Assembly (NCBI RefSeq): GCF_008629695.1
Contig: NZ_VWSH01000001.1
Span: 1,081,990-1,145,989, forward strand
Direction of reading: 5' to 3'
Length of the DNA: 64,000 nt
Origin: Taibaiella lutea
GTDB taxonomy: Bacteria > Bacteroidota > Bacteroidia > Chitinophagales > Chitinophagaceae
Shown: piece by piece, positions 2,164-15,397 of the stretch
Numbering within the stretch: the stretch's first letter is position 1
Layout of the letters: every line of letters begins with the position of its first letter
Program-made: the position numbers and the translations under genes
Notes under the pieces: generated by a model
The model's database searches: none
What the model was told of the DNA's origin: nothing
The model's input: the letters and a program-made list of their open reading frames with translations, nothing else

Positions 2164-2234
2164 TAGTTCCACCAGGATTCGAACCTAGACAAACAGAACC
2201 AAAAACTGTTGTGCTACCATTACACCATGGAACT
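2164..2234 (-). tRNA. tRNA-Gln (anticodon TTG), copy 1
   Basis: Read on the minus strand, this 71-nt gene has a 7-bp acceptor stem (AGTTCCA / TGGAACT) with discriminator A, a D-arm containing TAATGGTA, an anticodon loop TTTTGGT giving anticodon TTG (glutamine), and a T-arm with the invariant GTTCGAATC. The 3' CCA is not encoded. It is identical over its length to the tRNA at 15327-15397. A promoter lies directly upstream and a terminator directly downstream, so it is a single-gene transcript. Confidence 0.95.
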
Positions 2235-3982: not shown

Positions 3983-4318
3983 TCATTCTACCTCCGTATA
4001 ATTCTCAATAATATCTTTCCTTGCCGGTGTCCAACAAGTGATGATTTCACCGGTTGGCGTGAGGCATTCCAGATTGTGCGGAAGATTGGTATGTACGTGC
4101 ACAGATTCTCCTGCCGTTAAAATGGTTTTCTCGCTTCCATTGGTGGCTTCAAATTTTCCGGAAAGTACCGTATTGGTTTCTTGGTTGGTGTGATGATGCG
4201 TACCGCTAAAGCCTTTACCTGTAAACCATAAGCGGGCAATCATCATTTCCTCTGTGTAAGAAATTACCTGAAGCGTCACATCGTCGTTTAGTTTATATTT
4301 TTTGTATTGCTTCTTCAT
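3983..4318 (-). CDS. Small cupin-domain protein
   Basis: A 111-residue single-domain cupin. Motif 1 is visible as GTHHHTNQE...G (metal ligands among His41-43 and Glu47, Gly54) and motif 2 supplies His81 (LPHNLE). The length is typical of Cupin_2 proteins, which bind a divalent metal and serve as dioxygenases, isomerases or small-molecule sensors. The gene starts 12 bp after the stop of the SnoaL-like gene, so the two are very probably co-transcribed. No catalytic function can be assigned from sequence alone. Confidence 0.85.
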   Translation of the reverse strand: MKKQYKKYKLNDDVTLQVISYTEEMMIARLWFTGKGFSGTHHHTNQETNTVLSGKFEATNGSEKTILTAGESVHVHTNLPHNLECLTPTGEIITCWTPARKDIIENYTEVE

Positions 4319-4330
4319 TTTTATTAAATT

Positions 4331-5233
4331 TTATGCCATTTTTTTCACTACATTCAGAAATTCATCTTGGTTAGAAATGACAATAATGGATTTTATTTTT
4401 CCATCCGCAGCAACTTCAATATGCAATGCTTCTCTTATTTCAAAGTCTTTTTGTGTGGGCTGATAAACCTTGTCTTTATAGTTAAAAATACCATCGTGTT
4501 TGCCGTGCATGGTATAGCCGATTGATGAACGGTTGGCCTCCACAACACTTCTGTCAACTTGATAGGTAATATTGGAAAATGAAGCGACACGGCTTTTTAT
4601 TGCTCCCATAAATGCATCAGCACCGTTAATCATTTTTCCGTTCCAGTTTACTTTTACATCACCGGCCAAAAGCTTTTTAAAGCCCTCCCAATTGCGAAAA
4701 TTGAAATGCCTTATATACCAATCAGTCGTTTTCGCCGTAACTTCTTTTGGCACAGACTCATCAATGGGATAAAGCGTTACTTGCTGATGTTCTTCAACGG
4801 TTTCTTCGCCTTTTATTTGTGCTACCAATTTGTCCAATTGTGTAATGGTGAGTAAGTCTTTCATTAATCCGTTTTCGTCCATCACAAAAAATTCGGCGCT
4901 CATCGCTTCCACTTTATTTCCGGTTGGTGCTAAATCGCCATATTTGCCTTTTTGTTCGCCTTGTAACAAATAATGAACAGCAGCAACGTTGTCTTCAACA
5001 ATAACAATGCGGTCCTTGAGGCGCATTCCGGGAAATGGCCCGTCGTAACGCTTGATGCGGGTTACGAAATTGTCCCGCCCCACCAATATGGCATTGTTGG
5101 AGTTGACATAAATATCTTCAGTTACCAACAAACCGTTTTTATCAAAGTCGCCCGCACTGAAGTTTATGTGGAATGCCGCACCATTTTCCCTGACTAAATT
5201 GGTGTAATCTGATGTTGTGTTTTGTGTTTCCAT
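4331..5233 (-). CDS. Tandem SnoaL/NTF2-like protein
   Basis: A 300-residue protein built of two NTF2-like alpha+beta cones, roughly residues 13-135 and 165-298. The hallmark pattern is seen twice: an N-terminal helix, a GADAFMGAIKSR-type helix, then alternating beta strands. Such folds occur in polyketide cyclases, ketosteroid isomerases and many uncharacterised ester-cyclase-like proteins. As annotated it begins METQNT with no signal peptide. However, the 25-codon ORF immediately upstream encodes a lipoprotein signal and ends in a slippery A-tract; a -1 shift there would run in frame into this ATG, giving a lipoprotein (see the leader entry and findings). A cupin follows 12 bp downstream. 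Function unknown. Confidence 0.75.
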   Translation of the reverse strand: METQNTTSDYTNLVRENGAAFHINFSAGDFDKNGLLVTEDIYVNSNNAILVGRDNFVTRIKRYDGPFPGMRLKDRIVIVEDNVAAVHYLLQGEQKGKYGDLAPTGNKVEAMSAEFFVMDENGLMKDLLTITQLDKLVAQIKGEETVEEHQQVTLYPIDESVPKEVTAKTTDWYIRHFNFRNWEGFKKLLAGDVKVNWNGKMINGADAFMGAIKSRVASFSNITYQVDRSVVEANRSSIGYTMHGKHDGIFNYKDKVYQPTQKDFEIREALHIEVAADGKIKSIIVISNQDEFLNVVKKMA

Positions 5234-5235
5234 TA

Positions 5236-5313
5236 CTACTTCTTTTTTTCTTTTGACTGATTGCAGGATATTAAACCTATTGCGGCAACCATCACTATTA
5301 ATGTTGATTTCAT
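5236..5313 (-). CDS. 25-codon lipoprotein signal peptide ORF (leader of the SnoaL-like gene)
   Basis: Translation gives MKSTLIVMVAAIGLISC followed by NQSKEKKK and a TAG stop: a complete type II signal peptide with lipobox and Cys17, but no mature domain. The ATG overlaps the KilA-N stop codon (ATGA), so it is likely to be translationally coupled. The ORF ends 2 bp before the ATG of the SnoaL-like gene, in another frame. One extra A in the seven-A run (or a -1 ribosomal shift) joins the two proteins exactly. It may be a frameshifted start of the SnoaL-like lipoprotein, a programmed frameshift, or a sequencing error in the homopolymer. Confidence 0.6.
   Translation of the reverse strand: MKSTLIVMVAAIGLISCNQSKEKKK
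5242..5248 (-). promoter_or_regulatory. Candidate -1 frameshift (slippery) heptamer
   Basis: In the reading frame of the leader ORF the minus strand reads GA[A AAA AAG] AAG TAG. A AAA AAG is the heptamer used for -1 frameshifting in E. coli dnaX. After slippage the codons are GAA GTA GTA ATG, leading in frame into the SnoaL-like gene. No downstream stimulatory hairpin was identified by eye. Confidence 0.4.
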
Positions 5314-6125
5314 TTTATTTTGTTTAAAGATTTACTTTCAACCAATGATTTCATTTGGGTTATGGCCACTTTGTTGAGTTGAATAAGCCTGTCGCCTTGC
5401 GATAAACCTTGTGCGATAAGCAATGCGTTTATACTTTCCATATTACTTAATACTACCAGTTGTTCCAGTGTTGCAGAGTCTCTTAAGTTTCCTTTTTTAT
5501 CAATATTGTTTTCTCTCCATTCTTTTGCCGTAACGCCAAAAAGTGCAACATTTAGTAAGTCGGCCTCGCTGACATAAACAAAGCTTGCTTGTTGTTTGGT
5601 AATTTCTTTCGGAATGAGGTTTTCTTTTATAGCGTCTGTATGAATTTGATAGTTTACTTTGGCCAATGTTCTTTGCAGGTTCCATTCTAATTTCAGACGC
5701 TCGTTCTCTTCGTTTTTTAAACGTTGAAATTCCTTAACTAATAGGAGTTGAAATCTAGGACTAATCCACATCCCAAAATGAAAGGCAATATCCTTATGGG
5801 CATAAGTTCCACCGTATCTTCCTGCTTTTGCAGTAATACCGACGGCATTTGTGGCTTCAATCCAATTTTTAACGGATAGCACAAAATTATTGCTGCCTGC
5901 CATATTTTTAATTGTACCGAATTCGGTATAATTAAAATCGGGATTGTATAGAGCCTCCCATTCTCCAATATATTCGATGGTGCTTTTAAGTGTGAGCCAT
6001 TTTATGATTATGACTTCCTGCATTTGGCTTTTAGCCATGTCTGTAAGCGAAATATAATCATCTTTATTTTTCGAAATGACGCTTATATCTTTACCCTGGA
6101 CGCTAATCTTTGTATTTTTCTCCAT
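5310..6125 (-). CDS. KilA-N domain protein
   Basis: A 271-residue protein whose first ~135 residues match the KilA-N DNA-binding domain: the DDYISLTDMAK start, a central helix with NWIEATNAVGI, and the signature GRYGGTYAHKDIAFHFGMWISPRF (103-125, abbreviated) leading into a helical VKEFQRLKNEE segment. The C-terminal half is helical and has no recognised domain. KilA-N proteins are found in phages and in scattered, often mobile, bacterial loci; their role in bacteria is not settled. It is preceded by a 32-bp palindrome and overlaps the lipoprotein leader by the ATGA arrangement. It is a likely accessory gene and a possible local regulator (inference). Confidence 0.85.
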   Translation of the reverse strand: MEKNTKISVQGKDISVISKNKDDYISLTDMAKSQMQEVIIIKWLTLKSTIEYIGEWEALYNPDFNYTEFGTIKNMAGSNNFVLSVKNWIEATNAVGITAKAGRYGGTYAHKDIAFHFGMWISPRFQLLLVKEFQRLKNEENERLKLEWNLQRTLAKVNYQIHTDAIKENLIPKEITKQQASFVYVSEADLLNVALFGVTAKEWRENNIDKKGNLRDSATLEQLVVLSNMESINALLIAQGLSQGDRLIQLNKVAITQMKSLVESKSLNKIK

Positions 6126-15281: not shown

Positions 15282-15327
15282 ACAAAAAAGAAAAAGTCCG
15301 TCTTAAGACGGACTTTTTCTTTTTTGT
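15282..15327 (-). terminator. 46-bp palindromic terminator of tRNA-Gln copy 2
   Basis: A perfect dyad centred at 15304/15305, with core GTCCGTCTTAAGACGGAC flanked by A-rich and T-rich arms. On the minus strand it begins at the discriminator base of the tRNA and ends in a T-run, so it is an ideal intrinsic terminator. Being symmetric, it would also work on the plus strand. Confidence 0.85.
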
Positions 15328-15397
15328 AGTTCCACCAGGATTCGAACCTAGACAAACAGAACCAAAAACTGTTGTGCTACCATTACACCATGGAACT
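15327..15397 (-). tRNA. tRNA-Gln (anticodon TTG), copy 2
   Basis: Identical in all 71 positions to the tRNA at 2164-2234: acceptor stem AGTTCCA/TGGAACT, anticodon loop TTTTGGT with anticodon TTG, T-arm GTTCGAATC, no encoded CCA. Promoter elements lie upstream at 15418-15450 and a strong palindromic terminator directly abuts the 3' end. Confidence 0.95.

Follow-up and report, generated by a model that had tools for sequence, protein, structure and literature searches.

On the minus strand of a 64,000-nucleotide stretch of the Taibaiella lutea genome (hereafter the window), a short open reading frame (ORF) encoding a lipoprotein leader ends immediately ahead of a SnoaL-like gene that lies in another frame, and a slippery heptamer precedes its stop codon. 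Is this a device by which one locus yields two forms of a protein, or a single gene whose frame has been broken? An earlier note on this DNA proposed that a dnaX-type ribosomal slip joins the leader to the SnoaL-like protein, and named a one-base deletion or a sequencing error as the main rival. We find that this rival fits the data best. With a probability of roughly four in five, the leader and the SnoaL-like ORF would be the two halves of one ordinary lipoprotein gene, split by a one-base change in the length of an A-run, either through mutation or through an assembly error. All kinds of slippage together are left with about one chance in six.

Layout of the locus

The features of the locus are collected in Table 1. 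The leader ORF encodes MKSTLIVMVAAIGLISCNQSKEKKK, and its stop codon is followed by the dinucleotide TA and then by the ATG of the SnoaL-like ORF. The heptamer is placed in the zero-frame phase, as the X_XXY_YYZ pattern demands, and the -1 frame entered at this site reads EVVMETQNTTSDYTNL, contains no stop codon, and continues into the SnoaL-like ORF. The leader, the 2-bp spacing, the heptamer ahead of the stop, and the stop-free -1 frame had all been described correctly in the earlier note.

Table 1. Positions of the features in the window
Feature	Position	Strand	Remarks
KilA-N-domain gene, upstream	5310..6125	-	stop overlaps leader ATG (ATGA)
Lipoprotein leader ORF, probable 5' part of the gene	5236..5313	-	25 codons; lipobox LISC; stop TAG
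A_AAA_AAG heptamer	5242..5248	-	ends the A7 run 5249-5243; 1-base gap relative to the homologue here
SnoaL-like ORF, probable 3' part of the gene	4331..5233	-	300 codons; two SnoaL-like stretches; ATG possible restart
Cupin_2 gene, downstream	3983..4318	-	starts 12 nt past the SnoaL stop

Lipoproteins of the signal peptidase II type are characterized by the lipobox motif [LVI][ASTVI][GAS]C. Judged by eye against this motif, the leader carries the features of such a signal in MKSTLIVMVAAIGLIS-C, namely a basic n-region, a hydrophobic stretch, and the lipobox. The SnoaL-like ORF scores 70.9 bits with the Pfam model SnoaL_2 (cut-off 27) and 69.8 bits with SnoaL (cut-off 28.4), with two stretches per model. 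The C-terminal end of the upstream KilA-N protein aligns with that of a relative from Niabella. A Bacteroidota-type promoter (TTG...TANNTTTG) was found upstream of the leader neither in the window nor in either of the two Niabella copies described below, which makes the promoter search uninformative. Two tRNA-Gln(TTG) genes on the minus strand (window 2164-2234 and 15327-15397), about 13 kb apart, flank the KilA-N, SnoaL and cupin stretch, which is possibly an island.

Homologues and the one-base difference at the junction

The tandem SnoaL protein is rare within the genomes searched. Counting the window's own genome each time, matches were obtained in 1 of 59 genomes of relatives, 6 of 395 of the class, 3 of 395 of the phylum and, with a profile, 13 of 394 of the family (these four sets overlap partly); apart from the window's own genome, the matches were weak and partial, with a best E of 7e-7. 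The three genomes of the same genus gave no match, and neither the plasmid collection nor the viral contigs held further homologues. Short exact peptide patterns, which reach close relatives only, were scanned against a collection of 84,980 species and hit one locus, in Niabella ginsengisoli. Full-length relatives were found in this genome only: it holds two copies lying close together, one of them in two pieces.

The nearer copy (L009) is 81% identical. It opens with MRKSLLSAILAGSLLAACNQPTENQQATSTTDSSTSDYAQL and stays in a single frame through the start of the domain: MRKSLLSAILAGSLLAAC, a linker and the SnoaL start are all read in this frame. An unbroken single-ORF lipoprotein of 329 amino acids, 57-59% identical in the aligned part, is encoded by the second copy (L060:4099-5088). 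The homologue comparison at the A-run, which the earlier note had suggested as a check, thus goes against a conserved slippery site: where the window has its heptamer, both copies (from one genome) lack an A-run, and each of them has leader and SnoaL-like part in one frame. A wider view of this Niabella region (L060:1935-5960) shows two SnoaL lipoproteins alternating with two cupin-like lipoproteins, and a RidA-type-looking protein after them (names given by eye), which is possibly an envelope pathway with SnoaL and cupin partners.

That the leader might be a chance ORF was also considered, and this candidate was rejected. Aligned in its own frame with the two Niabella N-termini, the leader scored 39 (shuffles 16.2 +- 3.5) and 35 (14.9 +- 3.3), and none of 1000 shuffles reached the score against either of them. 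In its other two frames, by contrast, between 451 and 806 of 1000 shuffles equaled the alignment scores. Counted by eye, the distance from the lipobox Cys to a conserved Tyr is 20 residues in L009, as in the -1 reading of the window, and the second copy has 19. When the window and L009 are aligned globally as DNA, the junction region contains a single 1-nt gap, located right behind A7G (5242/5241), and a MAFFT alignment places the same 1-nt gap at the junction; a further gap, of 3 bases, lies beside the start codon. The match in the leader's own frame, the single gap, and the Cys-Tyr spacing together indicate that the leader is the true N-terminus and that the window's gene is frame-shifted. 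As in other genes disrupted by an indel, the homologues are single-frame and co-linear with the window except for one indel at the junction. It has also been proposed that singleton frame-shifted genes are likely to be indel mutations or sequencing errors (PMC3711429).

Of the joining claim itself, one part therefore stands: the locus corresponds to one lipoprotein, and the -1 reading equals the ancestral co-linear product. The slippery site as the joiner does not, since the two homologues are joined at the DNA level without an A-run, the search for stimulators was negative, and a tRNA-Lys(CUU) is encoded in the genome.

Between the window and Niabella, the SnoaL-like part is under purifying selection (188 codons of the C-terminal part; NG86 dN 0.12, dS 1.06). 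At the position of the window's SnoaL ATG, which falls in a variable linker, both homologues lack a Met, and this ATG was therefore probably not a start in the ancestor. The events at this locus may be pictured as follows. DNA-polymerase slippage in the A-run just past the lipobox would have deleted one base, probably recently, and translation begun at the leader ATG would now halt after 25 codons. Reinitiation at the SnoaL ATG, 2 bp further on, could then still yield the SnoaL part, as a soluble cytoplasmic protein. A recent origin is suggested by the intact leader; an undecayed leader would fit a recent event, and would fit a tolerated slip too. The conservation argument rests on two homologues from one genome, and L009 belongs to an error-rich assembly; the intact second copy concurs with it.

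Within this one-base reading, the cell itself may have an intact in-frame lipoprotein gene whose run was merely miscounted by one in the assembly. Such a sub-case is possible, though doubtful. The site is a homopolymer run, the gene is intact in one relative, the leader has not decayed, and the Niabella assembly demonstrates errors of just this kind: its L009 is broken twice, downstream of the junction and at or beside homopolymers, and these breaks are most likely assembly errors. On the other hand, the window's genome (G000) showed no frame breaks in the stretches checked. In a homology-based test with two query sets, 0 breaks were found there in 26,452 bp and 0 in 30,690 bp, although this covers only about 26-31 kb per query set and a break as close as 25 codons to a start would escape detection. 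The control genome (G006) had 0 in 28,960 bp and 0 in 66,650 bp, and the Niabella ginsengisoli assembly (G780) had 10 in 32,274 bp and 22 in 66,987 bp. A stricter run gave 0 in 15,223 bp and 0 in 13,988 bp for the window's genome, 0 in 11,899 bp and 0 in 36,573 bp for the control, and 9 in 18,510 bp and 8 in 37,915 bp for Niabella.

The spectrum of run lengths points the same way. Per 100 kb, A/T runs of length 8 versus length 7 numbered 10.6 versus 51.3 in the window's genome, which resembles the control (13.6 versus 61.9), while the values for Niabella were 5.0 versus 78.4. The absence of frame breaks and the undepleted 8-base runs lower the probability that the window holds an assembly error. 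Further arguments against it are the completeness of the genome (99.64%) and the fact that no other split gene was seen among the 57 window ORFs listed, 15 of which were scanned with Pfam. Only one genome of the species is available, which makes deletion and assembly error inseparable here; we think that a real deletion is favored, being about twice as likely. The Niabella assembly has about one frame break in every 3 kb that homology covers and few 8-base A/T runs, and its gene calls need care.

Possible slippage of ribosome and polymerase at the A-run

A programmed -1 frameshift on A_AAA_AAG would make a minor lipid-anchored form beside the terminated leader and a cytoplasmic SnoaL protein. 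We regard this as very unlikely, even though the exact heptamer is present in the right phase and the -1 product equals the ancestral protein, since the heptamer occurs in neither of the two homologues and stimulators were not detected. None of five Shine-Dalgarno (SD)-like motifs was found within 30 nt upstream of the heptamer, and pseudoknot-free folds of 63, 103 and 143 nt downstream were no more stable than shuffles (z 0.39, 0.99 and 0.11). In E. coli, shift-prone heptamers without stimulators reached 2.1-10 times a background of 0.055% (PMC4066793). The slip in E. coli is attributed to a sole tRNA-Lys that pairs weakly with AAG (PMC5009743). In the window's genome, one tRNA-Lys(CUU) gene (L022) and two tRNA-Lys(UUU) genes (L017, L018) were found among the matches listed (150 of 280 first-look candidates were scored, and all 48 tRNA matches listed were scanned). 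With tRNA-Lys(CUU) present, slipping on A_AAA_AAG is expected to be weaker (PMC5009743). The same source suggests that two lysine tRNAs may be the reason why Thermus thermophilus relies on RNA-polymerase slippage.

The heptamer alone is unremarkable. AAAAAAG occurs 58 times on both strands of the window, and the 367 ORFs with 100 aa or more in a 464-kb part of the genome (window included) have 21 in-frame A_AAA_AAG sites, spread over 20 ORFs. These 21 sites compare with 35.7 +- 5.9 in codon shuffles, and such rarity could hint that the site is shifty in this genome. In the control genome (45 versus 25.7 +- 5.0) and in Niabella (37 versus 29.9 +- 4.7) the heptamer is not rarer than in shuffles. 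A_AAA_AAA is equally avoided in the window's genome (56 versus 102.7 +- 10.6), which means that the heptamer is not singled out. Under-representation as a sign of shiftiness was therefore set aside.

The dnaX gene of the same genome (L129, G000:C3:123397-124467, minus strand) offers a further point against programmed frameshifting, as it has no in-frame A_AAA_AAG. It carries A10 at codon 395 of 630, and each of the other frames is closed soon afterwards, one after 2 codons and one after about 7. A total of 30 dnaX loci of the order (L133-L161 and the window genome's own L129) were fetched from 39 genomes. In 29 of them, a run of 9-11 (A or T counted) is located at codons 373-476, in varying phase; the sole locus without a run is a 406-codon open frame at a contig end. 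An in-frame A_AAA_AAG is present somewhere in 10 of the 30 loci and stands at the end of the run in five, which makes a ribosomal contribution in relatives possible. In a sample from the phylum, such a run is present in 16 of 30 dnaX loci (the order set shares two of these 30). In eight loci of this sample (L172, L175, L176, L177, L181, L185, L186 and L189), the dnaX frame closes soon past A9-A11, at 373-442 codons. These are of the two-ORF dnaX type, which has been described in kind (PMC3711429), and a long product would need slippage.

The order-wide run is, as far as the sequences tell, a candidate for a tau/gamma switch by transcription slippage. These runs resemble the poly-A dnaX type (PMC3711429) and the T. 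thermophilus case, and the pattern is therefore partly known; in the literature, PMC3711429 was the only source found on dnaX transcriptional slippage in Bacteroidetes. The dnaX runs of the order are more interesting than the split SnoaL gene, and they are partly in print.

Could the polymerases slip at the window's run as well? RNA polymerase might slip and give some mRNA in the joined frame (savior slippage), or replication slippage might alternate a lipid-anchored state with a cytoplasmic or silent one (phase variation). Both are unlikely. Runs of 9-11 seem to be retained in the dnaX of this order (29 of 30 loci), where poly-A slippage may be used; poly-A phase variation of a mycoplasma p78 gene has been published, and a frame-shifted dnaX with just seven A's is reported from Chlorobium phaeobacteroides (both PMC3711429). 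However, the run is missing in the two homologues, and A7 is below the lengths reported for transcription slippage, which are above 7 (PMC3711429), 9 (PMC5009743) and 11 (PMC4256274) A's; a gene of the transcription-slippage kind would be expected to have an A/T run of about 8-9 or more and heterogeneous mRNA. It is quite improbable that the A7 tract past the lipobox, by slippage in transcription, translation or replication, serves as a leaky or switchable junction through which one gene yields the tandem SnoaL protein in both a lipid-anchored and a cytoplasmic form. If it did, the locus would be a very small device that puts one protein into two compartments.

Meaning of the locus and comparison with known systems

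The split gene is an ordinary case. It illustrates how chance can place an exact slippery heptamer at an indel, and how such sites can be tested quickly by looking at homologue co-linearity, at tRNA content, and for stimulators. In annotations the protein is best classed as a lipoprotein, and a short cytoplasmic gene model at this place would probably be the product of a broken frame.

Several known systems resemble the window in part. No frameshift that joins a lipoprotein signal to a protein was met among the titles and abstract openings of the literature searched. The -1 frameshift of E. coli dnaX uses A_AAA_AAG in the same phase, with a stop shortly after, as in the window; there, in contrast to E. 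coli, the upstream SD-like motif and the downstream hairpin were not found, a second kind of tRNA-Lys (CUU) exists, and the site is present in neither of the two homologues. The transcriptional frameshift of Citrobacter rodentium tssM1 likewise has a poly-A tract before a premature stop, where added A's would restore the full-length protein; it involves 11 A's and was shown by experiment, whereas the window has 7 and is known from sequence alone (PMC4256274). In Mycoplasma fermentans p78, a surface lipoprotein according to the title of a cited reference, the A-run also lies within a lipoprotein gene (PMC3711429), while the window's locus is known from a single genome with one run length. Closest are the Niabella lipoproteins (L009 and L060:4099-5088): although their leader and domains share one frame across a junction without an A-run, they have the same signal peptide, lipobox Cys, short linker, and SnoaL-like tandem as the window.
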